Part shown: positions 27,969 through 49,592 of the stretch, piece by piece
How the letters are laid out: every line of letters begins with the position of its first letter
Position numbering within the stretch: position 1 is the first letter of the stretch
Virus record (IMG/VR): IMGVR_UViG_3300036770_003993
Span: 1-51,444 of that record
From: a virus
Direction: 5' to 3' (one strand)
DNA: 51,444 nucleotides
Made by a program: the position numbers and the translations under genes
The notes under the pieces: model-generated
Told to the model about the DNA's origin: nothing
Seen by the model: only the letters and a program-made list of their open reading frames with translations
Database searches by the model: none

Positions 27969-28563
27969 TATTTGTTTCTTTAATTACTTTGGGTAATTCT
28001 GATAATGAATTAATTTCCAAAGAGTGGTTTATTTTAGTATTATACTCAGTATTAAATTTAATAATATTTAAATCATTTTTGTAGTCAATAATAATATTTG
28101 GATTTGACGTAATTAAAGTATCGAATTGAGACAATACTTCCTTTTTATTTTTTTCATTGTAAAAAATATAATTCTCAATTAAACAACTAAACTTTGATAA
28201 AAAGAACAATGTTGCTGGTTTTGATTTACCCACCTCATCAGATATGATGTAAATTTCGTTATCATATTTAAACTCATTGTAAAAATCATTTAAATAATTA
28301 AATGTCATCATTTCAGTTGACATCGCATGACCAAATATTTCCATTGGACAATCTTCATACATAAACTCAATTAATTCCTCATCATCTTTAAACGTAAAGT
28401 GATTTTTTAGTACAGGAGTGTCAATCGGCTCTGAAATTTTATATTCAAATTCAGAATCATCGTTTAAATTATACTCATTTGGCATTAGAAATTTTTCATA
28501 ACACATTTTGAATTTACCAATTGTATCACGAAGAACTCCATTAATCTCAATCCCTATCTTCAT
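27949..28563 (-). CDS. HAD-like protein with degenerate catalytic motif
   Basis: A 204-residue protein. The N-terminus MKIGIEINGVLRDTIGKF is a HAD-superfamily motif I (hhhhDxDGVhxD) in which both catalytic Asp are changed: nucleophile Asp to Glu, and +2 Asp to Asn. The middle has EIYIISDEVGKSKPATLFFLSKF (around 100-122), matching motif II/III Ser and Lys. LITSNPNIIIDYKND near residue 150 corresponds to the region of motif IV. I therefore expect a HAD fold without normal phosphatase activity. It overlaps PhoH by 17 bp at its start. A binding, regulatory or pseudo-enzyme role is inferred. Confidence 0.65.
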   Translation of the reverse strand: MKIGIEINGVLRDTIGKFKMCYEKFLMPNEYNLNDDSEFEYKISEPIDTPVLKNHFTFKDDEELIEFMYEDCPMEIFGHAMSTEMMTFNYLNDFYNEFKYDNEIYIISDEVGKSKPATLFFLSKFSCLIENYIFYNEKNKKEVLSQFDTLITSNPNIIIDYKNDLNIIKFNTEYNTKINHSLEINSLSELPKVIKETNNVKTIQ

Positions 28564-29278
28564 ATCTTTTTAACAATTCTGTAATTATTGGATTTCTAAC
28601 AACATCCTCATCTCCGAATTGGTGAACCCCAACTTCCGACATGTTTGTTAATCTTTCCAATGCATCCCAAAGACCTGAGTGTTTTTTATCTTTATATCTA
28701 TCAGTCTGTTCCAAGTCACCTGATATAAAAAATTTACTGTCAGTACCAATACGAGTAAGAAGTAATTTCATTTGTTTTGGAGTTGCGTTTTGAGCTTCTT
28801 CAAAAATTAAAATAGAATTATCAATGTTCATACCTCTCATATATGCCAATGCGAATACCTCAATGACTTCCATTGCTTTTAATTTTTCACGAGCTTCCTT
28901 ACCTATGATTTTATTTAATAAGTAATATGATGGGAAGATATAAGGGTCTAGTTTTTCCTCAACATTACCAGGTAATGAACCCAATTTTTCTTCCGCCTCA
29001 ACTGCCGGTCTTACAATAATAATTTTTTCATATGGGGAATCGTGTTCAGCAAGTAAGTCAACTGCTGCTTTCATTGCAATAAAACTTTTACCAACACCCG
29101 CAGGTCCTGAACAAACAGTAATTTGGTTTCTCCTAAGTTTATCGTAATATTCTCTTTGGCTTTGAGTTAAAAATTTGTCTTTTCCTTTTTTTATAATTCT
29201 ACAAATTTGGTCTTTTTTTGAGATTTTAATTTCCCCCCCGAAATCCACCGGGTCTTTTGTTGTTTTTTTTCTTGTCAT
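28547..29278 (-). CDS. phoH: PhoH-like ATPase
   Basis: A PhoH-family P-loop ATPase of 243 residues, a very common auxiliary gene in marine and freshwater phages. Walker A is GPAGVGKS (residues 58-65). The Walker B region is ILIFEEAQNATPKQMKLLLTR, where the usual Asp is Glu160, followed by Glu161. RIGTDSKFFISGDLEQTD is the conserved sensor region. The first 45 residues are Lys-rich and may bind nucleic acid. The biochemical role of phage PhoH is not settled; the link to phosphate stress is by name only. It overlaps its two neighbours by 1 and 17 bp inside the glycan/sigma run. Confidence 0.9.
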   Translation of the reverse strand: MTRKKTTKDPVDFGGEIKISKKDQICRIIKKGKDKFLTQSQREYYDKLRRNQITVCSGPAGVGKSFIAMKAAVDLLAEHDSPYEKIIIVRPAVEAEEKLGSLPGNVEEKLDPYIFPSYYLLNKIIGKEAREKLKAMEVIEVFALAYMRGMNIDNSILIFEEAQNATPKQMKLLLTRIGTDSKFFISGDLEQTDRYKDKKHSGLWDALERLTNMSEVGVHQFGDEDVVRNPIITELLKRYEDRD

Positions 29279-30252
29279 TATTTAATTGTATAATAATCCA
29301 TCCAGTAGTCAATCATTTCATCTAACATACTTTCAAATGTATATTCATGAGTCCATCCTGTGTGTTTAATTAATTTAGACGAATCGCCCTTTAAATCGTG
29401 TAATTCTTCGGGTCTTAAAAATTTTTCATCTTGTTTAACATATTCAGACCAATGTAATCCCAATCTTGTAAAAACATAGTTAACCAATTCTCTAACTGAA
29501 TGAGAAACACCTGTTGCACACACAAAATCATCAGGTTTGTCTAATTGTAAAATTTCCCACATTGCTTTAACATAATCTTTGGCGTGTCCCCAATCTCTTG
29601 TTGCATCAAGATTACCTAATTTTAATTCATTAGATAATCCTAATTTAATTTTAACCGCTTCTTTACAAACTTTATTAGTGACAAAATTTGTTCCTCTTCT
29701 TGGTGATTCGTGATTAAATAAAATCCCATTTGAAATAAACATTCCATAAGAATTTCTATAATTACGACAAATATTATAACTAAATACTTTTGCACAACCA
29801 TACGGGGACACCGGATTCATTGGGGTGGTTTCTCTTTGATACCCGTCAGAATCAATTGAATTACCAAACATTTCTGATGAAGACGCTTGATATATTTTTG
29901 TGTCAGGTTTAATTAATTTAACGGCTTCTAAAAGATTTAACGTACCTAAACCTGTAACATTTGCGGTGTAAATTGGTTGGTCAAATGAAATTCTGACATG
30001 GGATTGCGCGGCTAAATTATAAATTTCATCGGGCATTACTTTTTGTATTACAGATATTAGAGATGACATATCTGTTAAATCTGAATAATGTAATGTAATT
30101 TTATCATAAACATTATTTAATCTGGCAGTTTGATTTTCAGCGACTGAGTTCCTTTTTAAAATTCCGTGAACTTCATATCCTTTATCTAATAAAAATTCGG
30201 CTAAATATGAGCCATCTTGACCGTTAATTCCGGTTATTAAAGTTTTTTTCAT
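29278..30252 (-). CDS. gmd: GDP-mannose 4,6-dehydratase
   Basis: Converts GDP-D-mannose to GDP-4-keto-6-deoxy-D-mannose, the common precursor of GDP-fucose, GDP-rhamnose, GDP-perosamine and GDP-colitose. It is an extended SDR of 324 residues (the family is about 350). The NAD(P) motif TGINGQDGSYLAEFLL is at residues 7-22, ILKRNS near 32-37 binds cofactor, and DLTDMSSL follows. The catalytic YxxxK is in SPYGCAKV, with the SSSEMFG Ser/Glu and RRG/FVTNK substrate loop present. All catalytic residues look intact. In this island a ColD-type dehydratase and an SDR downstream could use its product. Confidence 0.93.
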   Translation of the reverse strand: MKKTLITGINGQDGSYLAEFLLDKGYEVHGILKRNSVAENQTARLNNVYDKITLHYSDLTDMSSLISVIQKVMPDEIYNLAAQSHVRISFDQPIYTANVTGLGTLNLLEAVKLIKPDTKIYQASSSEMFGNSIDSDGYQRETTPMNPVSPYGCAKVFSYNICRNYRNSYGMFISNGILFNHESPRRGTNFVTNKVCKEAVKIKLGLSNELKLGNLDATRDWGHAKDYVKAMWEILQLDKPDDFVCATGVSHSVRELVNYVFTRLGLHWSEYVKQDEKFLRPEELHDLKGDSSKLIKHTGWTHEYTFESMLDEMIDYWMDYYTIK

Positions 30253-30258
30253 TTTAAT

Positions 30259-30708
30259 TTATTTTCGATTTAAATTGTATTTTTCAATATAATCACTACA
30301 AATTCCTAAACATTCTGATATGTCATCATCATTTAATTCAGGCATAACTGAGATACTATTTTTTATTGGTTGTTTTCCAGGGTATACCCAAATATAACTT
30401 TTACTTGTCAATGTTAAAGTGTCATTTTCATGCCAAAAATAATTAAAATTTAAATTTAAATTTTTAAAAAAAATAATTGACTCAATATTTTTACAATGTA
30501 TCCATAATTTATCAATTCTATTTTCAAACCATTCTAAATTAATTTTGTATTGAGGATAGTCATGACCAAGATGTAAAAAATTATTAAAATACCAAACATC
30601 TACCTCAACATTATATCCTTTATTTATTGATAAATCAACATAGTCAGGAGAATTTTCAAATAATGGAAAAGAACCGTTAATATTTCCTCTGTGGGATATT
30701 AATATCAT
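30259..30708 (-). CDS. GDPD-like (glycerophosphodiesterase fold) protein
   Basis: A 149-residue protein with the glycerophosphodiester phosphodiesterase-like active-site pattern. ISHRGN gives His6-Arg7, ENSPDY gives Glu18-Asn19, GYNVEVDVWYF gives Glu35 and Asp37, and LGHDYP gives His49-Asp50. It is shorter than the usual GDPD barrel (about 240 residues), so it may be a minimal or incomplete barrel. Enzymes of this fold hydrolyse phosphodiesters, for example glycerol-phosphate. In a polysaccharide locus it could process phosphate-linked glycans. It overlaps the next gene by 4 bp. Function is inferred from the motif only. Confidence 0.7.
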   Translation of the reverse strand: MILISHRGNINGSFPLFENSPDYVDLSINKGYNVEVDVWYFNNFLHLGHDYPQYKINLEWFENRIDKLWIHCKNIESIIFFKNLNLNFNYFWHENDTLTLTSKSYIWVYPGKQPIKNSISVMPELNDDDISECLGICSDYIEKYNLNRK

Positions 30709-32060
30709 ACTTCATAATTTTCTAAAAAATAATTTAAATCTTCTGGAGTGCCAATCCCCCACATTTTTTTGATGTTAAATGTACTGATTTTTTTACCATC
30801 AGTGATTGCCTCATTAAATACTGGACAAACATAAAACTCATTATTTACCCTAATATTTTTTTTAATCATGTTTTCGGCATATTTTACAAAGTCTGAACCA
30901 TGTTTCCAATAATAATAACCAACAGTTGCGATATTTGAAATTGGATTTTTTTCCGCGACTTCAGTTGCATATCCGAAATCATTAACTTTAACAAACGACC
31001 ACTTTGGGTGAGTTGATTCAAAAGTAACTATTCCACCGTCAACTTGGGTTTCTTGCATTTTATACATAAATTCATTAGACTCCCACTCAACAAATTGGTC
31101 AGAGTTTGCAAAAAACAAAGGATTTTCATTATTAATATATTCTTTAGCCAATAGAGCTGTACATGCGGCTCCTTCAGTTATCCCATCAACTTCAACTATA
31201 GTACATTTTGGAGTTATTAAATTTAAAAGTGTATCTAAATTATATTTTTCCCTATGTGATTTTTGAACTACATATATGTAATTGGCATCTAATGATAAAT
31301 TGTCAATTACTACTTGAATCATGGGTTTACCATTCACATCAATTAATGGTTTTGGAAAAGAGTATCCGGCCTTTTCAAAACGACTTCCAGCACCAGCCAT
31401 AGGGATTAGTACATTTAATTTTTCATTCTTCCATTTTAATTTAGTTTCCATAGTATTTTTATCTAAATATTTTTTTATGTTATCAATAGTCACATCATAA
31501 GGTGAGGAAACTCTCATTACGTTTGACTTACTTCTACTTGCCGCCAATAAACCAAATGGAGAGTCTTCAACAATCAAAGTATCTTCAGGGATTACTCCCA
31601 TTTCAGACATTACTTTCCAGTACATTTCAGGATGAGGTTTACTATTTTTAACATCTTCATTTGATACTATGTAATCAAAAAAATGAATAATATTTAATTT
31701 TGTTAAAACTCTTACCACGGTTTTTCTAATACTATTCGAACAACATGCAATTTTGAATCCAAGATTACTTAATTCATTAATACACTCAAATAAATGCTTA
31801 GATGGTGTCAAACTATTTAGTTTTTCTAATGTTATTTTTTGTTTCATTTCCCAAATACTATCATACATCTCAACCGGTAATCCCTTTTCTTTGGTTAACA
31901 TTTCCAATTTTTGTTTGGTTTTTAACCCATCATATTTACTTAAATGTTCATCCCATTCTATTGAATACCTTTCACCTAAAGATTCGTTTAGTGAATCATA
32001 ATGAATTTTTTTAGCCTCAACTAAAACACCGTCTAAATCAAAAATTATTAATTTAATCAT
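30705..32060 (-). CDS. HAD phosphatase fused to sugar-1-phosphate nucleotidyltransferase
   Basis: A 451-residue two-domain enzyme. Residues 1-205 are a HAD phosphatase of the beta-phosphoglucomutase type: Asp8 and Asp10 in IIFDLDGVL, Ser109 in CCSNS, Lys141 in NSKPHP, and Asp166 in IVEDSPFG. Residues 215-451 are a nucleotidyltransferase: LIPMAGAGSRFEKAG (219-232), then FPKPLIDVNGKPM with Lys237. The pair recalls phosphatase plus guanylyl/cytidylyltransferase steps of sugar activation, as in heptose or mannose pathways. A mannose-1-phosphate or related guanylyltransferase would feed the Gmd enzyme in the same island. The exact nucleotide is not readable. It overlaps the methyltransferase gene by 8 bp. 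Confidence 0.85.
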   Translation of the reverse strand: MIKLIIFDLDGVLVEAKKIHYDSLNESLGERYSIEWDEHLSKYDGLKTKQKLEMLTKEKGLPVEMYDSIWEMKQKITLEKLNSLTPSKHLFECINELSNLGFKIACCSNSIRKTVVRVLTKLNIIHFFDYIVSNEDVKNSKPHPEMYWKVMSEMGVIPEDTLIVEDSPFGLLAASRSKSNVMRVSSPYDVTIDNIKKYLDKNTMETKLKWKNEKLNVLIPMAGAGSRFEKAGYSFPKPLIDVNGKPMIQVVIDNLSLDANYIYVVQKSHREKYNLDTLLNLITPKCTIVEVDGITEGAACTALLAKEYINNENPLFFANSDQFVEWESNEFMYKMQETQVDGGIVTFESTHPKWSFVKVNDFGYATEVAEKNPISNIATVGYYYWKHGSDFVKYAENMIKKNIRVNNEFYVCPVFNEAITDGKKISTFNIKKMWGIGTPEDLNYFLENYEV

Positions 32061-32784
32061 TTTTATATTTTTTATTTAAAAAAATAATATCAAATTCTGT
32101 GAATTGATTTGGAGTACCAATATATTTGATTGGTATAAACCCTTGATTATTCATATATAATAGTAAATCGTCTAAATTTGTACCATCTTTATAGTGACTA
32201 TCCATAGCAATTTCAGTGTATATTGCTTTAACATTTTGTATATTTTTATTAAATCCATTCAGTACAAACTTTTCAGCTCCTTGAACGTCCATCCATATTA
32301 AATCAATTTTTGGTATTTGATATTCATTTATGAAATCATCCCCTTTCATAGAGTCTGCAACTATTTTTAGTTGTTCTCCGTTACCTAGTATAATACTATC
32401 ATTATTTTTAACTTCTAAAATTGAACTGTCCCCAATGTTACCATTTATCACTTCATAAAAATCAATTTTACCTGTGACATTACTTAAAACCATTTTATGA
32501 CATTTGATATTAGGTCGATTAACCGTTTGTGTCTGACTACAATAATTAAAACTATATTCAACAGGTTCAAATAAATGTATTGTTGAGTTTGGAAACCAAT
32601 CAGATAATTCCATAGATTGACATCCGTCCCGACTACCAATTTCAAATATGATATCAATTTCTTCCATATTTAGATATGGTTCTAGTGATTTGACAAAATC
32701 ATAAGTATACACCAAAGAATACCCATCCCAATTATGGTATTTTCTATCTTCAACATTATTAAAAGCATTATTGTTATAGTTCAT
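32053..32784 (-). CDS. FkbM-family methyltransferase
   Basis: A 243-residue SAM-dependent methyltransferase. The SAM motif is IIFEIGSRDGCQSMELSDWF (residues about 44-63). HLFEPVEYSFNYC is motif II with Glu binding ribose. PKIDLIWMDVQGAEKFVLNG (around 157-176) is the FkbM signature (hDvqGaE). FkbM enzymes methylate hydroxyls of sugars and secondary metabolites. It overlaps the carbamoyltransferase gene by 11 bp and the nucleotidyltransferase fusion by 8 bp, so the two decorating enzymes are co-translated. I infer O-methylation of a glycan residue; the position is unknown. Confidence 0.85.
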   Translation of the reverse strand: MNYNNNAFNNVEDRKYHNWDGYSLVYTYDFVKSLEPYLNMEEIDIIFEIGSRDGCQSMELSDWFPNSTIHLFEPVEYSFNYCSQTQTVNRPNIKCHKMVLSNVTGKIDFYEVINGNIGDSSILEVKNNDSIILGNGEQLKIVADSMKGDDFINEYQIPKIDLIWMDVQGAEKFVLNGFNKNIQNVKAIYTEIAMDSHYKDGTNLDDLLLYMNNQGFIPIKYIGTPNQFTEFDIIFLNKKYKND

Positions 32785-34297
32785 AATTTTTTTTAACTAA
32801 AATATTAAATTCTCTGAAATAAAGATAGTTTATTTCAGTATTAAGGAAACAATTTATTGCGTCTTTTGGGGTTTCAACAATAGGTTCTTTATCGTTAAAA
32901 CTTGTATTTAGTAAAATTGGTACTCCTGTTTTATTATTAAAAATGTTAATAAAGTTATAATACCACTCATTACTTTTTTTTGTGACTGTTTGTAATCTAC
33001 CTGTCCCATCTAAATGGACTACTGCGGGGACTAAATGCTTTTTTTCATTTTTGAAAGGTATTGCAAAACTCATATATGGACTATCAACATCCTCAACAAA
33101 CCATTCACTAACATAGTCTTTCAATATTGAAGGCGCAAAGGGTCTAAAATTTTGTCTATGTTTTACTTTTTGATTTATTAAATCTTTAATATCTGAATGT
33201 CTTGGGTCGGCTAAAATAGACCTATTACCTAATGCTCTTCTTCCTGACTCACTACCACCACCAAATACACTAATAATATTTTTATTAATTAATAAATCTA
33301 TAACTAATTCATCAGTAACAATTTCATATTGTAAATTATTTTTTTTGATTGACTCAATTACCAAATCTTTATCATATTTTCTTCCTAAATATGGACTATT
33401 ATAAAGACCTTCTTTCGGTCTTTGTATATTTTTAACAGAATGTAAATAATACTGAGCGCATCCAATTGCCAAACCTGCGTCGTATGGCACTGGAGGAACA
33501 AAAACATTTTTAATTTCCGGAAACCAACTTTTTATTTTGCCCATCATAACACAATTTAATGCTACTCCTCCTGATACACATAAATTTTCATATTTATACT
33601 TTTCTAAGTATTCTTTTAATAATGAATATATCACGTCTTCAGTTATTTTTTGAATTCCGGCTGCCAAATTAAATTTAGTTTGAGTATCTGAATTAGAATA
33701 TTGATTAAATGGTCGTTCAGGTATTAGAATTTCATCACTCATTGATGTCATTGCCATAACAGTTCCTGCTTGAGAGCCGTATGGAGGTCCTCCACTAGAT
33801 AAATTAAATATTTCTCTAACACAATCTGACCAAATACCACCTAAATTAGGTTCGTATGTATGGTATAATAGATTTAAATTATTTTCAGACCCTTCCCATA
33901 TAGTCAATGTACTAGGTGTCATATTATCATTAAAAACATCCCAACCTCCACCATCAATAGTTAAAATTAAAGAGTTATTAAAATCACTTGAAAAAAATGC
34001 GTTAGCCGCATGTGATGTGTGGTGACCAACCTCAATACACTTATTAGGATTTTTTGATTTATATTCTAAATATTTTGGAGAATAAAAAATATAATCATTG
34101 TGTGGAAACGTTAATACATAATCAAAATCGTCTAAAAAATGTCCAATTGACTCAAGATATGTGATTATACATTCATTTGTTTCTTTTATTCTATTTATTC
34201 TTTCTAATTCCTCGTGAATCACTAAATTGTTATTTTCAAAAATTGCATAACTACTGTCATGTGAACCCATGGAAAGTGATAGTATTTTATTTTTCAT
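32774..34297 (-). CDS. O-carbamoyltransferase (NodU/CmcH family)
   Basis: Transfers carbamoyl from carbamoyl phosphate to a sugar hydroxyl through a carbamoyl-adenylate. At 507 residues it is somewhat shorter than the 550-600 usual for the family. The N-terminal Kae1-like domain has VGHHTSHAANAFFSS (metal-binding His) and ILTIDGGGWDVF, then VSGGVALNC near residue 245. The C-terminal YrdC-like domain has SGRRALGNRSILADPR and FRPFAPS, all typical. A segment around residue 125-150 looks shortened. It sits between an FkbM methyltransferase and a WavE-like gene in the island, so a carbamoylated glycan is predicted. Related enzymes occur in other large phages. Confidence 0.9.
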   Translation of the reverse strand: MKNKILSLSMGSHDSSYAIFENNNLVIHEELERINRIKETNECIITYLESIGHFLDDFDYVLTFPHNDYIFYSPKYLEYKSKNPNKCIEVGHHTSHAANAFFSSDFNNSLILTIDGGGWDVFNDNMTPSTLTIWEGSENNLNLLYHTYEPNLGGIWSDCVREIFNLSSGGPPYGSQAGTVMAMTSMSDEILIPERPFNQYSNSDTQTKFNLAAGIQKITEDVIYSLLKEYLEKYKYENLCVSGGVALNCVMMGKIKSWFPEIKNVFVPPVPYDAGLAIGCAQYYLHSVKNIQRPKEGLYNSPYLGRKYDKDLVIESIKKNNLQYEIVTDELVIDLLINKNIISVFGGGSESGRRALGNRSILADPRHSDIKDLINQKVKHRQNFRPFAPSILKDYVSEWFVEDVDSPYMSFAIPFKNEKKHLVPAVVHLDGTGRLQTVTKKSNEWYYNFINIFNNKTGVPILLNTSFNDKEPIVETPKDAINCFLNTEINYLYFREFNILVKKNYEL

Positions 34298-36309: not shown

Positions 36310-37299
36310 TTATAAATTTTCTAAAATTTTTATTATTTTTTTTGTTGAATACCCGTCCCCATATGGGCATTCTTTATTAATTACAAAATTATCTATTAAA
36401 TCATAAAATAATTTTGATAAATCATTAGGTGTTTTACATAAAAATGAATGTTCACCTAATGACTCAATTCTTTCAGTAATTTTACGACAAATAATTACTT
36501 TTTTATTTAAAAATGACCCTTCTTCTTGTAACCCTCCACTATCCGTTATGCAAAGTTTACATCTACTTAAATAATCTATTAAATCTTCATGATTTAGTGG
36601 GTCAACTACTTTAACATTTTTTAAAATTATTGAATGTTTTTTTACGTTTGGATTAGGATGAATTGGTAATAAAAACTCAAACTTAGGATTTTCTTCTGCC
36701 AATTTATCTATTGATTTAAACCATTTATCAATATTTTCATGGTTTTCTCTACGATGAAGTGTTATTAAAATTTTATTTTCATAACTAGTATCAGTGCCAA
36801 TTAGATTATCTAATACAGTATTACCTACAACATATTTATCTCCTAATATTTTTTCAGATAATAAATTATCGTAGTTTAATTTAGTGGGGCATAAATGTAT
36901 ATCAGCTATTTTAGATATAATTTGTCGATACACTTCTTCAGGGTATGGGTTTTCTTTATCATAAGTTCGTAGACCTGACTCCAAATGAATAACTTTTATT
37001 TTTCTATGGTAACAAGCTAAAGCGATGGATACGGCAGTTGCGGTATCCCCTTGAACTAAAACGTAGTCAAATTTGTTATTTAAAATGTCTGATATTTTAT
37101 CAGACATTACAGATGAAAAAATAGAGTCTAGCCTATTTTCAAAATTTAAAATTTCTAAAAAATAATCATACTTACCTAAAACTAAATTTTCATGTTGTTT
37201 AACAAATAAAAATTCAAATTGTATTTTGCCTACGTATTCAAAAAAGTTTTTAATTTTTATAAATTCAGGTCTTGTACCATAACATATTAAAATTTTCAT
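36310..37299 (-). CDS. wecB: UDP-GlcNAc 2-epimerase (WecB-like)
   Basis: Interconverts UDP-GlcNAc and UDP-ManNAc, the precursor of ManNAc-containing glycans. At 329 residues it is slightly short against about 375. Family blocks are present in order: ILICYGTRPEFIKIKNF (residues 3-19), VLVQGDTATAVSIALACYH (around 79-97), VIHLESGLRTYDKENPYPEEVYRQIIS, GNTVLDNL, ILITLHRRENHEN (around 176-188) and LCITDSGGLQEEG (around 251-263). The conserved Arg, Asp, Glu and His residues of the active site are present. It lies between the GT-D-like gene and a family 2 transferase. Confidence 0.9.
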   Translation of the reverse strand: MKILICYGTRPEFIKIKNFFEYVGKIQFEFLFVKQHENLVLGKYDYFLEILNFENRLDSIFSSVMSDKISDILNNKFDYVLVQGDTATAVSIALACYHRKIKVIHLESGLRTYDKENPYPEEVYRQIISKIADIHLCPTKLNYDNLLSEKILGDKYVVGNTVLDNLIGTDTSYENKILITLHRRENHENIDKWFKSIDKLAEENPKFEFLLPIHPNPNVKKHSIILKNVKVVDPLNHEDLIDYLSRCKLCITDSGGLQEEGSFLNKKVIICRKITERIESLGEHSFLCKTPNDLSKLFYDLIDNFVINKECPYGDGYSTKKIIKILENL

Positions 37300-38909: not shown

Positions 38910-39704
38910 TTATATTTTAATCCAATTTTTAGGGTGCATTGTAGACACATCAATGTATGAAAACCAATTATTTGGTACTATCACTTTTTTATTTTTGTTT
39001 TTATTTAATAGTGCTCCCCACCAACTAAATGAAGAATTTGCGATTATATTATTGGTACAAAAACTCATTAACCATAAATCAGTTACTGAATTGTTATTTT
39101 CAACAAAAGTCATATTTTTAAATTTTAAATTTTCTTTACACCAATTAATGTCGTCAGAAAAAACAAATATATTGTCATATTCACCAATAATTTCTAATGC
39201 TCTTTCATAGTAAGATATTGGTTGAACTGGATGGAATCCATTCGAGGTTAAATAATCAGTTCTTCGAATATGTATTGAAACGCTATTATTTGAAATGTTT
39301 GGATATTTTTTTAGTAAATTTTCAGTAATTGGGTCTGTACAAGATAACTCAGAAATTATTTCATTAATATAATTTTCAATTAAATAATATTTTTGCCAAT
39401 AATCAAAAAGTACGTAATTTTTTTCTTTATCTAATTCAGAACTATAAGTATTGAAATTTGATTCTGTTAACTCGATAACTTCTTTTTGGTAAATTTCATT
39501 AATTGTAGAATCATCAATTAATTTATAATTTATATTTGGAAAAATAGACAGTTCAAATTCTCTTTTAGTAATTCCATTCTGAATTGACATATGTCTTAAA
39601 TCTAAATATGTATCACATCCATATTTAATTTCAATTGCCCTTCCAATTGACCATTGAAAAAGTTGATTACCTATTCCTCCTCGTATGTAGTTTAATACTT
39701 TCAT
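38910..39704 (-). CDS. Alpha-1,2-fucosyltransferase family protein (GT11)
   Basis: A GT11 enzyme of 264 residues. Motifs present are IRGGIGNQLFQWSIGRA (residues 7-23), the family N-terminal signature; HIRRTDYL (145-152), the GDP-binding HxRRxDY motif; and the C-terminal SSFSWWGALLN (around 225-235). These transfer L-fucose, or its 3-deoxy relative colitose, from the GDP-sugar to the 2-OH of an acceptor, as the E. coli O55 enzyme WbgN does. Because the next gene is a ColD-type dehydratase rather than a GDP-fucose synthase, a colitose donor is more likely than fucose here. The ORF is complete and sits 1 bp from the dehydratase gene. Confidence 0.88.
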   Translation of the reverse strand: MKVLNYIRGGIGNQLFQWSIGRAIEIKYGCDTYLDLRHMSIQNGITKREFELSIFPNINYKLIDDSTINEIYQKEVIELTESNFNTYSSELDKEKNYVLFDYWQKYYLIENYINEIISELSCTDPITENLLKKYPNISNNSVSIHIRRTDYLTSNGFHPVQPISYYERALEIIGEYDNIFVFSDDINWCKENLKFKNMTFVENNNSVTDLWLMSFCTNNIIANSSFSWWGALLNKNKNKKVIVPNNWFSYIDVSTMHPKNWIKI

Positions 39705-40862
39705 TTATAAATTTTTATTAACAATTTTAATTACTTTTTCAATTTCATCATCTTTCATTTGGTGATTGTTTGGTAAATACAATCCATATTCATGAACCAT
39801 TTTAGAAATTGGTAACTCTTGTTTTCCGTATCTTTCATACCAAAATGGATGCTCGTTAATTGACCCACAAATTAAAGGACGACATTCTATATTATTATCC
39901 ATTAAATCTTTAATTATTGATTTTATATTTTTAGAAATAATTGGATACGCAAAATTTGAAATGTACATATTCTCATTTGGATTTATATTCCAAAATGAAT
40001 TTTTAATATTTTCTTTGTATTTTAAATAATTTTGATTTCTATTCTTTACAATATCATCTAATTTACTCATTTGACCTAAACCAATAAATGCTTGTAAATC
40101 TGTTGACCTAAGATTAAATCCAGGATAATAAAAGGTGTATAATGACCTAAAATCAGTAATGTTATACTTTAATCTGAGTTCATTTTGTTTTGAAGGTGAT
40201 AAGTCTCTATCCCATCCATGTGACCTTATTGATAATAATATATTATACAATTCTTCATCATTTGTAGATATCATCCCACCTTCAATTGTTGACATATGAT
40301 GACCAAAATAAAATGAAAATGTTGATAAATCACCAAATGTGCCTAGTAACTTATTGTCATATTTTGAACCAATAGACTCGCAGGTATCCTCAATTAATAA
40401 AATATTGTTTTCATGACAAAGATTTATAATTTCATCCATGTGATTAGGGAACCCTAAGACGTGAACTAAGATTATTACAGATGGGGATTCTTCTAATATA
40501 ATCTTTTTTAAATGATTAATATTTAAACCTAAATTATCAACATCACACTCGCACATAATTGGTTCTAAACCCAACTGTATTGCTGGAGTTACAGTAGTAA
40601 CCCAAGAAACTGCAGGAACAACTATTTTTTTATTTTTTAATCTGCCTGATAATATTAAGGAATAAACCGCTGCTAAATTTGCGGATGAACCCGAGTTAAC
40701 AAAAACTGAAAATTTTGTACCTAACCACTCAGACCATTTTTTTTCAAATTCAACAGTTAAGTCTCCTTTTGTTAATTTTGGATTAGTTTTTAACCACAAT
40801 ATTAATTTTTCAATATCATCTAAATCAATAGTGTCTTTAACTAATTTTATTATTTTTGACAT
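39705..40862 (-). CDS. colD: GDP-4-keto-6-deoxy-D-mannose 3-dehydratase (ColD-like)
   Basis: A PLP enzyme of the DegT/aminotransferase fold, 385 residues (E. coli ColD 388). The internal aldimine Lys is replaced by His188, within SFYFGHHMSTIEGG (residues 183-196); this His for Lys change marks ColD and related 3-dehydratases, where the His acts as the catalytic base. Other conserved parts are NSGSSANL (56-63), VPAVSWVTTV (82-91), LIEDTCESIG (156-165), IRSHGWDRD and ECRPLICG. ColD removes the 3-OH from GDP-4-keto-6-deoxymannose, the product of Gmd, giving the colitose precursor. The gene overlaps the SDR gene upstream by 26 bp. A CDP-sugar E1-type dehydratase is the main alternative, but those enzymes are larger. 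Confidence 0.88.
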   Translation of the reverse strand: MSKIIKLVKDTIDLDDIEKLILWLKTNPKLTKGDLTVEFEKKWSEWLGTKFSVFVNSGSSANLAAVYSLILSGRLKNKKIVVPAVSWVTTVTPAIQLGLEPIMCECDVDNLGLNINHLKKIILEESPSVIILVHVLGFPNHMDEIINLCHENNILLIEDTCESIGSKYDNKLLGTFGDLSTFSFYFGHHMSTIEGGMISTNDEELYNILLSIRSHGWDRDLSPSKQNELRLKYNITDFRSLYTFYYPGFNLRSTDLQAFIGLGQMSKLDDIVKNRNQNYLKYKENIKNSFWNINPNENMYISNFAYPIISKNIKSIIKDLMDNNIECRPLICGSINEHPFWYERYGKQELPISKMVHEYGLYLPNNHQMKDDEIEKVIKIVNKNL

Positions 40863-41622
40863 CTCTAATTGTTAAATTTAAAAGTTCATCATAATTTGAA
40901 AACCCGTTTTTAGAAAAATAAAAATTTCTTTTTTGGGGTAGGGTATAATTTTTGTCAATTGAAATATACTCATCAAATTCCATATTGGAAATAGAAAATA
41001 AATCTTTTACAAAATTATGAATGTCTATCAATTCTCCTGACCCCACAATCAAATCAGAATTTGATTTTATTGATTCATTAACAATTACTGATGGATGAAT
41101 AATGTCTCGTTTTAAATTGATGTCACCTATTACATTTTTATTTTTATTAATTAATGAATCAAATATTTTAGAAAATAAAAAACCTTTTTTTCTAAATGGA
41201 GAATTAAAATTAAAAGGGTATATTATATTAACATTATTATATTTATCTTTATTTCCATTAATTATATTTGAAATAATTTCTTTTGACTTTATATATGGTG
41301 AATAGTTATACCTATACGGGTCTGATAAAGACACCTCTCCGTCATAGTCGTTCCAAAGCTCACTTGTCGAGTATATTTTTATACTATTAACATAGTCCTT
41401 AATATTTTCAATAACTTTTAATGTGTAGTCAACATTAACTTCATTAAAGAAATTTTCAGATTCATTTAAAAACGTCCTTTGCTCCGCAAATAGCACGTAT
41501 ACTGAGTCATAATTATTTTTCCTTATTGTCTCAAAATCTATATTTCTGGAAGAAATTTTATGAAAAGTATTTGGAAAATAATGTGATAATTGGGACGAAT
41601 CCCCAATAACTAAATTATTCAT
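40837..41622 (-). CDS. Extended SDR, candidate GDP-colitose synthase (ColC-like)
   Basis: I start at 41622 (MNNLVIGDSSQLS, 261 aa), which overlaps the upstream stop by 8 bp; a longer frame opens 48 bp earlier inside that gene. Residues 3-14 (NLVIGDSSQLSH) form a degenerate nucleotide-binding turn. IKIYSTSELW (81-90) has the SDR catalytic Ser/Thr region. Tyr110-x-x-x-Lys114 in SPYIKSKEI is the catalytic pair. KRDIIHPSVIV (171-181) equals the RDhhHhxDhh element. It lies directly upstream of the ColD gene, where a C5-epimerase/4-reductase completing GDP-colitose would be expected. The identity of the reaction is inferred from position; the GxxGxxG motif is weak. Confidence 0.6.
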   Translation of the reverse strand: MNNLVIGDSSQLSHYFPNTFHKISSRNIDFETIRKNNYDSVYVLFAEQRTFLNESENFFNEVNVDYTLKVIENIKDYVNSIKIYSTSELWNDYDGEVSLSDPYRYNYSPYIKSKEIISNIINGNKDKYNNVNIIYPFNFNSPFRKKGFLFSKIFDSLINKNKNVIGDINLKRDIIHPSVIVNESIKSNSDLIVGSGELIDIHNFVKDLFSISNMEFDEYISIDKNYTLPQKRNFYFSKNGFSNYDELLNLTIRDVKNNKIS

Positions 41623-41962
41623 TAAACCCTTTATAAAATTTAACAGAATCTTCAGCAACTGATTTTCCACTCATTATTGAGTTATCTATCATTTTGTTAA
41701 TTGCCTGAACGTATTTTGGTCGTTTTATTTTAAAACATATGTCTATTTTTCTTTTTAAATTTGCAATCTCGGAATCATCTTTCGCCTCACTTATAGCGTC
41801 CTCCAAATACCACATTCGGCAATGTAATATTGATAATTTCTCAATTACTTCACCTAAATTATCTGTTTCGATAATGTCCTCAGGTAGGTCAACGTTTTTG
41901 TTTTTGTTTAATGACTCAACAATTTTTGAGTGTATTAAACTTTCTATTTTTTCTCCAATCAT
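41615..41962 (-). CDS. DUF4254-like small helical protein
   Basis: A 115-residue helical protein. The central LSILHCRMWYLEDAISEAKDD, followed by LKRKIDICFKIKRPKYVQAINKMID, resembles DUF4254-type proteins, which are often found in lipopolysaccharide and capsule loci and in phage genomes. DUF4254 has no known activity; the helical pattern suggests a scaffold or regulator. It has one Cys and no membrane segment. Its end overlaps the SDR start by 8 bp and its start lies 1 bp from the neighbouring transferase. The family match is tentative. Confidence 0.55.
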   Translation of the reverse strand: MIGEKIESLIHSKIVESLNKNKNVDLPEDIIETDNLGEVIEKLSILHCRMWYLEDAISEAKDDSEIANLKRKIDICFKIKRPKYVQAINKMIDNSIMSGKSVAEDSVKFYKGFNE

Positions 41963-41963
41963 A

Positions 41964-42614
41964 TTAAAATATTGTTATAAAATTATTTTTTCCTTTACTA
42001 TTTAAGTATTCATCATAACCACGGATATATTGGTGATAATAAAATTTTGGTTTACTAAATACATACGAGTTAACTAAACATTTTATACTTGATTCCATGA
42101 TATGAACCTCGGTTGCATTTTCGATTAACTTTAATATATCAAATACTCCATAATTTGTTGGATTATCGATAATTTTTAAATCTTTTCTAACTTTTTTTAG
42201 GTCAACTCCACCATGTGTGAATACGTATTCTTCATTATTTGGATTTAAATTTTGATAAACCTCATTTTCTTTGTCTAAATCTCTTAAAAATTTAAACTTT
42301 GAATACCTAAACTCAAAAGGAAACCCTGCTTGTTTATAGAAAGATTCGTCAAAAGTGGAACAAGAGTAATCCGCAGTAATCCGTATGGTATCTTTTTCAA
42401 TGTTATTAGTTAGAATGTATGAATCAACATCCCATACTTCTCCAATTGGTAACACAATAATATTATCATCATCCCTGTACATGTATTCAACATTTTTAAA
42501 ATTATGAGGTTTACAAAATACAGTTACTTTACCATAAATTTGTTTATAGTTTCTGACCATTCCATTACAAATAATATGGTCACCTAATCCTAAATGGTGA
42601 AAAATATACTTCAT
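41964..42614 (-). CDS. GT-B-like glycosyltransferase (GT9-like fold)
   Basis: A 216-residue protein. It starts with YIFHHLGLGDHIICNGMVRNYK (residues 3-24), where the GLGDHI turn is the GT9-like N-terminal motif (hGDhhhshPhhr) of heptosyltransferase-type enzymes. EEYVFTHGGVDLKKVRKDL (around 136-154) corresponds to the donor-half start, and EVHIMESSIKCLVNSY (around 177-192) corresponds to the later glutamate/serine loop. It is shorter than heptosyltransferases (about 320 residues), so it is minimal. It lies 1 bp from the neighbouring genes on both sides. Donor and acceptor unknown. Confidence 0.65.
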   Translation of the reverse strand: MKYIFHHLGLGDHIICNGMVRNYKQIYGKVTVFCKPHNFKNVEYMYRDDDNIIVLPIGEVWDVDSYILTNNIEKDTIRITADYSCSTFDESFYKQAGFPFEFRYSKFKFLRDLDKENEVYQNLNPNNEEYVFTHGGVDLKKVRKDLKIIDNPTNYGVFDILKLIENATEVHIMESSIKCLVNSYVFSKPKFYYHQYIRGYDEYLNSKGKNNFITIF

Positions 42615-43238
42615 TTATATACTGTTTAATAATATTTCCATTTCATTTTTTGTTTTGATATAATGAAATGATATATAATTTTTTATTTCAGATAGACCAA
42701 ATCCAAAAAATGAAGGTGGTTGTGACCTAAACATAATAGAATCTTTTGATGAGATTCCTAACTCTCTTAAACATATTCCTAAACTTACGTCAGAATATCC
42801 GGAATTTAAAAATTTAACGTGATTAATTATATTTTTAAGTAACTCTGAATGTATTAAATATCCAGCACCTCCTGAACAATAATTAAGACTTCTATCACCC
42901 GGCCAAGTACCTTCAAGTACTGAGCCATGTACTGAATTTTTATCAGAAGACTCTATAAATTCCTCTAATTTTTTAGTATTAACAAATGTATCATCATCAC
43001 AAAAGAAAAACCATTCATAACCTTCAACATTATTTGATACATAATGTAACACATTGATGTGTTTATCTTCATTTGAATGATAATCTGTTCTATTTGAAAC
43101 TTTTACAATGTTTTTTTCATTATCCTCATGGTCTGAATAGAATAAACAATCCTCATTTTTTCCCCATGTTTCTTTAACGTTATAATACCTATCAGGATTC
43201 ATTGACCCGTGTAATATTACATATAGTATTTTTTTCAT
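42615..43238 (-). CDS. Fringe-like (GT31-type) glycosyltransferase
   Basis: A 207-residue protein with the motifs of the Fringe/beta-1,3-galactosyltransferase fold in order: VKETWGKN (Glu23-Thr-Trp-Gly26), the WFFFCDDDTFV metal-binding motif (Asp81-Asp83), NYCSGGAGYLIH (119-130) and SGYSDVSLGICLRELGI (147-162), then a late FRSQPPSFF. The cofactor would be Mn2+ with a UDP-sugar donor. This combination is best known from eukaryotic core-1 and Fringe transferases, with sparse bacterial and viral relatives. There is no N-terminal membrane anchor, so it is cytoplasmic. It overlaps the next gene by 4 bp. Confidence 0.8.
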   Translation of the reverse strand: MKKILYVILHGSMNPDRYYNVKETWGKNEDCLFYSDHEDNEKNIVKVSNRTDYHSNEDKHINVLHYVSNNVEGYEWFFFCDDDTFVNTKKLEEFIESSDKNSVHGSVLEGTWPGDRSLNYCSGGAGYLIHSELLKNIINHVKFLNSGYSDVSLGICLRELGISSKDSIMFRSQPPSFFGFGLSEIKNYISFHYIKTKNEMEILLNSI

Positions 43239-43894
43239 ATTACTAATTTATAGTCTTCACCAACAAAATTGTCATTTTCATCAATTCTATCCCCAACGAA
43301 TCTTCCAAATTCTCTTTTAATGGGGAATGGTTTATTTTCAAAAAATTCATCATGAGTAAATCTATCATCTTTAAAAATAGAGTAAATGGTCTTCAAAAAT
43401 GTTTGGTCAGAACCGTATTCTAAATTTTTATTTTTTGTAAATTTATCAATCATTTCGGTTAATGGGATTATCCCTGATTTAATCCCCCACATCCCTCCTA
43501 AAATTCCCAACCCATCATTACCGTAAGGTATTCTATGAGCCGGATGGTCTCTCATAACATGTATCGATTTACCTGAATTAATCCATTCATCTACCGCCAT
43601 TTTTTCTCTAATCGTTATTCTTGAATCGGAATCTCTAAACACACAATATTGGGCATTTTCTAAATCGTGAGCAAAAAATCTCCAAAACATTCCATAGATT
43701 TTCTTTTCAGTAAAATTTATGGTTAAAACTCCAAATTCGTTTAATTTATTAATTGTCTCAATTGGCACAGTATTATCATAATATACCACCATTTGCCAAT
43801 CTGAATAAATTGTTTTCCATAGTTCAGCATTTTTAATTGCTCCAATATTGTATATTGGAGAATCTCCCCAAAGACTAAAACTTAAATAATTCAT
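43235..43894 (-). CDS. Glycosyltransferase-like protein with DSD motif
   Basis: A 219-residue protein. It has a GT-A-like fold: LWKTIYSDWQMVVYYDNTVP (around 26-45), ENAQYCVFRDSDSRIT (79-94) with the metal motif Asp-Ser-Asp, HVMRDHPAHR (112-121), GNDGLGILGGMWGIKSG (125-141), and YGSDQTFLKTIY (around 160-171), which resembles a transferase active-site DQ loop. I have seen similar proteins annotated as hypothetical in phages and giant viruses. It is coupled to the upstream gene (ATGA, overlap 4 bp) and to the Fringe-like gene (overlap 4 bp). Sugar donor unknown. Confidence 0.65.
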   Translation of the reverse strand: MNYLSFSLWGDSPIYNIGAIKNAELWKTIYSDWQMVVYYDNTVPIETINKLNEFGVLTINFTEKKIYGMFWRFFAHDLENAQYCVFRDSDSRITIREKMAVDEWINSGKSIHVMRDHPAHRIPYGNDGLGILGGMWGIKSGIIPLTEMIDKFTKNKNLEYGSDQTFLKTIYSIFKDDRFTHDEFFENKPFPIKREFGRFVGDRIDENDNFVGEDYKLVI

Positions 43895-45318
43895 ATTTTA
43901 TTTTCGGTCAATTCTTTTATGTTTTTTTCATAATCGACATAATGTCCTTGGGTTCCATGAGAATCCATTTGGTAGTGTTTGATTAAGCCTTGAGTCAACA
44001 TAACGTTAATCTTATTAAAAATATAATAAAAACTAATTGACCTTTCATGTGCATGTCCGGCAGTTTTTGAGGATTTAATTAACTCACTAATTGGGACAAA
44101 CCATTTCATATATGAATTAAAATAGTCATATGACATTGTTGAATTACTTGTAGATGACCACATCATATTTGGACTACTTTTTATATAAAATCGAATAGTT
44201 TTTTCCAAATCTAAATTATAAATTTGTTTAACAGAATTAAAAAATTCTCCGACCCAATCTTTATTATCAATGTAATGAAAATTAGAACAAGGAAACGGAA
44301 TATACCCAACCATAGGAACCTCATCATAAACAAATTTTGAAATAATTTGACCTAAATTATCATGAGTGATTAAGTCGTATTCAAATAGGTTTACATACTT
44401 GGTGGTTATTAGATTATTTTTCCACAATGCGTACCATCCTGTAAATGCGTTTAATGTTGGATACTCCTCCATATTAAACTCCAAATTACGTGCTATTATC
44501 ACATCTTCCCTACCCTCAATTTTGTCAGTAGGTCGGTTACCTAAAAACATATATTTTAAATTAGATAAAGAACTAAATTTACCATTATCAATATAATTTA
44601 ATATAATGTCTTGGTCGTGACAAAAGATAAATGTTGAGTATGTATTATTTTTATTTGTAATGTCTATTGGTAAATGTTCTTTGTAAATTTCAGAAAATTT
44701 AATTCGGTTTTGTTCCCATTGGTCATTAGTCATACCAATAGATAAGTGAGTTAATCTAATATCTGAAATAACCCCAATTTTAACTCCATCGACATAGTTT
44801 GGGATACAAAAAGACAAGTCATAAAAATGGAAACCATCAAAATCCGTATTAAACTTATGTTTAATTTTATTCTTATCAAACGAAATAAACAAACCATCAA
44901 TTAAAACAGCTTCTTCAATTTTATTATTTAAATGTTTTGAATAAGTACTAGTCCATTTTTTACCTTCGTGTTTGTGATTCACAATACCATACATTGTATG
45001 TGGGACTTCCCACCATTTACCTGATGATGGTAAGTATTTTGACCCTGCCATACCAAGTACACCGTATTCAGGGTTTCTTTGGTAATGTTTAAGTAATTTT
45101 ACTCCCCAATTATTTGTATCAAACTCAATATCATCGTGACATAACACAACAATATTATTACTACTCTGTTCAATAATTTCATTATAAACTTGTGGTAATG
45201 ATTTAACACCATTATTAACAACTTCAATTAATTGGACATTTTTAATTCCACAAGTTTTTTTAATATATTCCTGAAATTCAGGTTTAGTTTCTCTGGTACT
45301 ATATCCTATTGTTATCAT
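43891..45318 (-). CDS. Two-domain protein, GT2-like N-terminal transferase
   Basis: A 475-residue protein. Residues 1-215 resemble a GT2-like family: MITIGYSTRETKPEFQEYI, NIVVLCHDDIEFDTNNWG (around 54-71) with Asp-Asp as the metal site, GVLGMAGSKYLPSSGKWW, and GFHFYDLSFC (around 162-171). The rest (about 230-475) begins again with TYSTFIFCHDQDIILNYI and contains VNLFEYDLITHDNLGQI and a Trp/Ser-rich part, then the TAGHAHERSISFYYI helix. This second half could be another transferase domain (galactofuranosyl-like or DUF4422-like), but I cannot say which. It is the last gene of the sugar island before dUTPase, with a 4-bp overlap. Confidence 0.7.
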   Translation of the reverse strand: MITIGYSTRETKPEFQEYIKKTCGIKNVQLIEVVNNGVKSLPQVYNEIIEQSSNNIVVLCHDDIEFDTNNWGVKLLKHYQRNPEYGVLGMAGSKYLPSSGKWWEVPHTMYGIVNHKHEGKKWTSTYSKHLNNKIEEAVLIDGLFISFDKNKIKHKFNTDFDGFHFYDLSFCIPNYVDGVKIGVISDIRLTHLSIGMTNDQWEQNRIKFSEIYKEHLPIDITNKNNTYSTFIFCHDQDIILNYIDNGKFSSLSNLKYMFLGNRPTDKIEGREDVIIARNLEFNMEEYPTLNAFTGWYALWKNNLITTKYVNLFEYDLITHDNLGQIISKFVYDEVPMVGYIPFPCSNFHYIDNKDWVGEFFNSVKQIYNLDLEKTIRFYIKSSPNMMWSSTSNSTMSYDYFNSYMKWFVPISELIKSSKTAGHAHERSISFYYIFNKINVMLTQGLIKHYQMDSHGTQGHYVDYEKNIKELTENKI

Positions 45319-49142: not shown

Positions 49143-49592
49143 TTAAATTAATTTTTTCATTATTTCGTTTATTATTTTTAACTCATCAATAACTCTTTGT
49201 TCTAATTTTAAAAAAGAATTATCAGTTGCCGATGAATGTCTTTCTGAACTTTTTCTATGTCTCTCAGATGGTCTTATGCTATTTTTATCTCTTTTTTCAT
49301 GAGTGCTAATAAATGCATTTTCCTGACCTGATTTCATTTTTGCTCTTTTTGAGGTTGTTGAGTTATCTCTATTTGTAGATAATGTGTTACTAACCCAGTT
49401 CTCAAAAAATTCCCCACCCAAAGAATCCTTTTCACCATTTTTCATATCGTGTAAAAATTTCTTTAAGTTTGAATAAGAGATTTGTTTCTTATCAATTAAA
49501 TTTTTAACCCTCTCATTTCCTGAATATGATTGTAATTTATTCAGTACGTTATCGGGTATATCATAAACTTGTCCGTAAAGTTCTCTATTCAC
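49143..49592 (-). CDS. Basic helical protein, unknown function
   Basis: A 149-residue basic protein. The N-terminal part (MNRELYGQVYDIPDNVLNKLQSY) is followed by a Lys-rich helical region (NLIDKKQISYSNLKKFLHDMKNGEKDS) and a Ser/Arg-rich stretch around 90-125 (RDKNSIRPSERHRKSSERHSS), then a C-terminal helix. The basic region may bind nucleic acid. No family is recognised. It overlaps the upstream gene by 8 bp and is 4 bp from the next. Confidence 0.5.
   Translation of the reverse strand: MNRELYGQVYDIPDNVLNKLQSYSGNERVKNLIDKKQISYSNLKKFLHDMKNGEKDSLGGEFFENWVSNTLSTNRDNSTTSKRAKMKSGQENAFISTHEKRDKNSIRPSERHRKSSERHSSATDNSFLKLEQRVIDELKIINEIMKKLI

Follow-up and report, generated by a model that had tools for sequence, protein, structure and literature searches.

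A predicted soluble glycosyltransferase of the GT31 family and its neighbouring partner gene in a sugar-gene block of T4-like phages

The window, that is, the whole 51,444-base record that was analysed, carries T4-type genes for terminase, portal, prohead protease and major head protein that match PHROGs of these functions and mark it as DNA of a T4-like phage; the origin of this DNA from a phage, as given in the preliminary description, was thus borne out. The portal and the capsid protein each matched, at low identity, some 2,500 phage records, most of which are T4-type, and their nearest relatives were found in a Microcystis phage, in Flavobacterium phages and in one uncultured phage (34-45% identity). 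A cyanophage host was considered and rejected, given the absence of psbA (PF00124) in 14 related records and these nearest portal and capsid relatives. Because open reading frames (ORFs) run off both ends, the window is probably an incomplete genome.

A minus-strand block of sugar genes, roughly 25 kb long and common to related viruses, occupies about 25-48 kb of the window. The features in and near this block were as follows.

28547-29278, PhoH-like ATPase inside the sugar block (212 bits)
29278..30252, minus strand, GDP-mannose 4,6-dehydratase-like protein (PF16363, 400 bits; TIGR01472, 401.7, just below its cut-off of 415)
30705..32060, minus strand, HAD hydrolase fused to a sugar nucleotidyltransferase (PF13419 and PF00483)
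32053..32784, minus strand, FkbM-type methyltransferase (PF05050, 57 bits)
32774..34297, minus strand, carbamoyltransferase (PF16861, 207 bits)
36310..37299, minus strand, UDP-GlcNAc 2-epimerase-like protein (PF02350, 211 bits; TIGR00236, 208.1, just below its cut-off of 210.15)
38910..39704, minus strand, GT11-type (fucosyl) transferase (PF01531, 85 bits; phrog_2644)
39705..40862, minus strand, DegT/DnrJ sugar aminotransferase (PF01041, 238 bits)
41615-41962, small conserved protein without a database family
41964..42614, minus strand, conserved protein of 216 aa downstream of the GT31 gene, with no Pfam match and no database family
42615..43238, minus strand, predicted GT31 (Fringe/Galactosyl_T) glycosyltransferase of 207 aa (Pfam, alignment, AlphaFold, Foldseek, pN/pS)
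43235..43894, minus strand, unclassified GT-A-like protein with an 'SLWG' N-terminus (homologue alignment, model, Foldseek, synteny)
43891..45318, minus strand, Glyco_tranf_2_5 glycosyltransferase (PF13712, 91 bits, cut-off 27)
49143-49592, weak sub-threshold RelE match (PF06296, 17 bits, cut-off 27)

The block further contains GT2 and several other glycosyltransferases, and dUTPase, exonuclease and the PhoH-like ATPase are interspersed among its sugar genes. The Glyco_tranf_2_5 gene lies upstream in the same overlapping run as the GT31 gene and was matched in the L003-L017 and L019 loci that reach that far. The gene at 41964..42614 immediately follows the GT31 gene in L002, L003, L005, L017, L018, L020 and L024, and its product, judged by the N-terminal 'HHLGLGDHIICNGM', is a probable GT-B-type transferase. 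The small protein is 61-72% identical across otherwise diverged loci. Both of these genes accompany the GT31 gene in many loci.

All transferases found in the block were soluble by hydropathy. Simple hydropathy, which is indicative only, predicted no multi-span membrane protein among the 39 minus-strand ORFs at 17-50 kb; a lone hydrophobic stretch was seen in one ORF of 662 aa. Genes for a membrane transporter, a flippase, a polymerase or a ligase were not detected in the sugar block. Since the window may hold only part of the genome, membrane genes could be situated beyond its ends.

The GT31 ORF begins with ATG and spans exactly 42615-43238. The four motifs named in the preliminary description were present in the order given there: ETWG at residue 23, DDD at 81, GGAGY at 123 and SDVSLG (SDVxLG) at 149. 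An additional C-terminal FHY, which that description lacked, was located at residue 191. The claimed absence of a membrane anchor also held, the maximum 19-residue Kyte-Doolittle mean being 0.74. Animal GT31 members usually have a type II membrane anchor, although membership of the family does not require one. Pairwise pN/pS of the gene was 0.21-0.45, which shows purifying selection.

The proposed GT31-type assignment was checked by profile searches and by structure prediction. The ORF scored 46.0 bits with PF02434 Fringe (curated cut-off 21, E=5.5e-12) and 41.6 bits with PF01762 Galactosyl_T (curated cut-off 23, E=1.6e-10), whereas GT2 Pfam models remained below their own cut-offs; a better match to a bacterial glycosyltransferase family lacking the motifs was looked for and did not appear. 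All nine close homologues searched matched both the Fringe and Galactosyl_T models. Among solved structures, the best relatives in a sequence search were the GT31 enzymes B3GLCT, C1GalT1 and CHSY3; in a profile search, the matches to B3GLCT and C1GalT1 became stronger and B3GNT2 rose. An AlphaFold model computed with 26 phage homologues as input reached a mean pLDDT of 95.6 and a pTM of 0.92. When this model was compared with the PDB by Foldseek, ranks 1-38 were all GT31 (E from 9e-14 to 4e-8) and included B3GNT2, B3GalT5, C1GalT1, CHSY3/CHPF, B3GalT6, Manic Fringe and GfsA. The solved GT31 structures found were all eukaryotic. Profile and predicted fold therefore support the assignment of the 42615-43238 product to GT31.

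That the protein belongs to another GT-A family and shares with GT31 only the motifs appears highly improbable. DxD and xED are common to GT-A families, and motif-based Fringe calls have failed before: the N-terminal domain of PBCV-1 A064R (2p6w/2p73), likewise a soluble viral GT-A domain without an anchor, was called 'fringe-class', yet its crystal fold is nearest to the retaining family GT34 (PMC5408694), and for this reason the fold ranking matters here. In that ranking, A064R (2p73) was the first match outside GT31, at rank 39 with E=5.7e-7 and TMq 0.57, against 9.2e-14 for the top GT31 structure, a gap of nearly seven orders of magnitude; both GT31 Pfam models also exceeded their cut-offs. 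A misassignment of the A064R type was thus ruled out by the fold ranking, and the phage protein, as modelled, passes the fold test that A064R failed.

The label 'Fringe' should be taken here to mean a fold and a catalytic site of the GT31 kind; it does not imply the activity of Fringe itself, which is the β-1,3 transfer of GlcNAc to O-fucose. Manic Fringe (2j0a) shares the fold (TMq 0.71, E=1.7e-9) and the Pfam Fringe model with the phage protein, but it was a weaker fold match than B3GNT2, B3GalT5 and C1GalT1, at rank 37 only, and nothing pointed to activity on O-fucosylated EGF repeats.

In an alignment of 26 homologues, down to 27% identity, 13 columns were invariant, among them D81, D83, G124, G126, D150 and H192. 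In Drosophila C1GalT1, the landmarks of the active site are the DxD at 181-183, a glycine-rich loop, the xED base D255 and the metal-binding His324, and the D255A variant is inactive (PMC9065035). D81/D83, the glycine loop, D150 and H192 of the phage protein correspond to these four GT-A landmarks, and the catalytic site, made up of D81/D83, the GGAG loop, D150 and H192, is complete. Drosophila C1GalT1 (7q4i) and the human-type β-1,3-glucosyltransferase B3GLCT (12em), the best solved sequence relatives, have counterparts of the DxD, the glycine loop, the catalytic Asp and the C-terminal His. C1GalT1 matched the phage model with a TMq of 0.81-0.83 at about 22% identity. Unlike both enzymes, the phage protein has no membrane anchor, and it is shorter (207 aa).

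It is quite likely that the phage protein works as a soluble GT31-type glycosyltransferase with a metal-dependent, inverting mechanism; this degree of confidence applies to the enzyme assignment and mechanism, and the target of the enzyme is graded apart. In the proposed mechanism, D81 and D83 of the DxD together with H192 would hold the metal and the diphosphate of the nucleotide sugar, and D150 would act as the catalytic base on the acceptor hydroxyl, like D255 in C1GalT1. A hexose or N-acetylhexosamine would most likely be moved from a UDP-sugar into a β-1,3 linkage; the inverting chemistry, the UDP donor and the linkage are what we infer for this enzyme. The acceptor would most likely be a glycan that the neighbouring phage sugar-nucleotide enzymes and glycosyltransferases assemble in the cytoplasm of the host. 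The GT31 family spans β-1,3-Gal, GlcNAc, GalNAc and Glc transferases. It also includes GfsA (8yrl), a β-1,5-galactofuranosyltransferase (PMC11538602). Because activities are mixed within the family, the donor and linkage are not readable from family membership, and the β-1,3 linkage is a guess extrapolated from the family majority.

The distribution of this protein was studied in phage and bacterial sequences, and the counts given here depend on the patterns and thresholds chosen. A pattern scan of IMG/VR yielded at least 46 loci (contigs) with GT31 relatives, several of them near-identical, on contigs of up to 304 kb; a second scan with one pattern from a wider alignment returned 40 loci, none of which was new. 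Of the relative-bearing IMG/VR records, 20 were searched with the Fringe model, and 18 of them contained a match that exceeded its Pfam cut-off. With at least 46 contigs, this is therefore a real phage family and not a one-off. In INPHARED, only one of 50,697 records was matched, that of an uncultured phage of 634 kb (25% identity), and three more divergent GT31 queries gave no match; neither PHROGs nor NCBIfam holds a model matching the protein. The statement that such enzymes are rare in prokaryotic viruses thus broadly holds, set beside the IMG/VR contigs. In bacteria, as far as they were sampled, the protein was rare. A search of about 85,000 genomes with a strict pattern gave one confirmed locus. 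GT31 was found in 2 of 395 genomes of the phylum of a Bacteroidetes metagenome-assembled genome (MAG; L048) and in none of 14 control genomes. Weak bacterial matches were also seen in G195, G199 and G343 (E about 5e-5). In a tree of the phage sequences and one bacterial sequence, the bacterial domain grouped with two phage sequences, on long branches.

GT31-like proteins of other viruses were found in BFVD, where the predicted fold was shared by proteins of the eukaryotic viruses Pithovirus LCPAC001 (625 aa, E=3.1e-12) and elephant endotheliotropic herpesvirus 4 (414 aa, E=4.9e-14). A phage protein annotated as Fringe-like, A0A8S5QEQ3 of Myoviridae sp. ctn8H20 (UniProt/BFVD), also matched in predicted fold (E=9.7e-10) but differs in length (612 aa), identity (15%) and architecture. 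Because giant-virus, herpesvirus and phage proteins of this kind are already in BFVD, the phage GT31 is not the first viral one. No open-access literature on GT31 in phages was found. What is new here is the presence of relatives on at least 46 IMG/VR contigs, together with their usual proximity to a second, unclassified GT-A-type protein.

The gene for this partner protein lies upstream of the GT31 gene and overlaps its start by 4 nt (ATGA). R87-D88-x-D90 is invariant in the 18 homologues of the partner, as is R-x-x-x-R-E. The protein had no match in the PDB, Pfam, PHROGs or NCBIfam. Its model reached a pLDDT of 87.4, and the best Foldseek match was glycogenin (GT8). The partner is thus a probable GT-A enzyme by its model, for which no family is named because the TMq of about 0.5 with glycogenin is too weak. 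In most distinct phage loci, the partner adjoins the GT31 gene or lies within about 5 kb of it, usually upstream and sometimes downstream; within the DNA retrieved around each locus, it was not found in L028, L037, L038, L040, L042 and L044-L046. Partner homologues were also noted in Synechococcus phage S-SRM01, in two 735-kb uncultured phage records and in Acinetobacter phage MD-2021a.

The two genes were seen again as a pair in one lineage of phages and in a single Bacteroidetes genome. The phage contig G003 (294,914 bases) carries a second, divergent copy of the pair (L102, 3892-5279), which is arranged as in the window, lies next to other sugar genes and is separated from the first copy by about 22 kb. 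In the Bacteroidetes MAG (L048, 4564-12612), a homologue of the partner directly precedes, in the same order, an open frame of 3071 residues that contains a Fringe domain (PF02434, 40.9 bits) and several other glycosyltransferase-like domains; in contrast to the phage protein, with which it shares 27% identity, the Fringe domain is fused within this multidomain frame. We infer that the partner and the GT31 enzyme are paired and act on the same glycan, the GT31 enzyme probably one step before or after its partner. The uncharacterised, conserved partner is a more interesting lead than the GT31 enzyme itself.

Because the GT31 gene lies in a large sugar block common to related viruses, phages that carry this block probably build their own unusual glycans. 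As no membrane transporter, flippase, polymerase or ligase was detected in the block, it is more likely that the glycan would be placed on phage proteins or on a carrier handled by the host than exported by phage machinery. Decoration of virion proteins (capsid or fibres) with the phage-made glycan, as in chloroviruses, is a serious possibility, at somewhat under even odds. In their predicted solubility, the transferases of the block resemble chlorovirus enzymes that are expected to glycosylate the capsid protein Vp54 (PMC5408694), and structural genes are located in the same window; however, no glycosylated protein was identified and no protein-glycan ligase was recognised, and the chlorovirus transferase A064R belongs to a different fold family. 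The enzyme could instead modify the O-chain of host lipopolysaccharide or the capsule against superinfection, by way of host lipid carriers and flippases, a reading to which we give slightly less credence than to virion decoration. Such a role was proposed for the glycosyltransferases of pelagimyophages, T4-like phages whose hypervariable region encodes numerous enzymes of this kind (PMC7029224). O-antigen blocks typically contain genes like those for the GT11 enzyme, the aminotransferase and the GDP-mannose dehydratase-like protein, but no flippase, polymerase, ligase or other multi-span protein was detected in the phage block. Moreover, seroconversion modules usually need one or few genes, a number that the steps of the block exceed.

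Protection of the phage DNA from restriction by glycosylation of its modified bases, as carried out by the T4 α- and β-glucosyltransferases, is the least likely role and seems quite improbable. Nucleotide-metabolism genes (dUTPase, exonuclease) do flank the GT31 gene, and T4-like phages do glycosylate modified bases. However, the T4 base glucosyltransferases are GT-B enzymes, whereas GT31 enzymes use glycans or glycoconjugates, and none of the genes examined was recognisable as a base hydroxymethylase. With virion decoration as the target, it may be speculated, rather tentatively and at a somewhat lower likelihood than either surface reading, that the GT31 gene and the 'SLWG' gene, the latter representing a new GT-A family, form a two-gene phage cassette that builds a defined disaccharide onto a virion-decorating glycan encoded by the phage and moves between phages and Bacteroidetes, and that the phage reservoir of soluble GT31 exceeds that of bacterial genomes.

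GT31 enzymes are best known from eukaryotes, where they synthesise Fringe-modified Notch glycans as well as mucin core 1 and chondroitin. A minimal, soluble, anchorless GT31 family in T4-like phages would serve enzymology and glycan synthesis and fills a gap in PHROGs and NCBIfam, neither of which covers it. It raises the question of whether GT31 originated in a phage, a bacterium or a eukaryote, and it points to phages assembling complex glycans.
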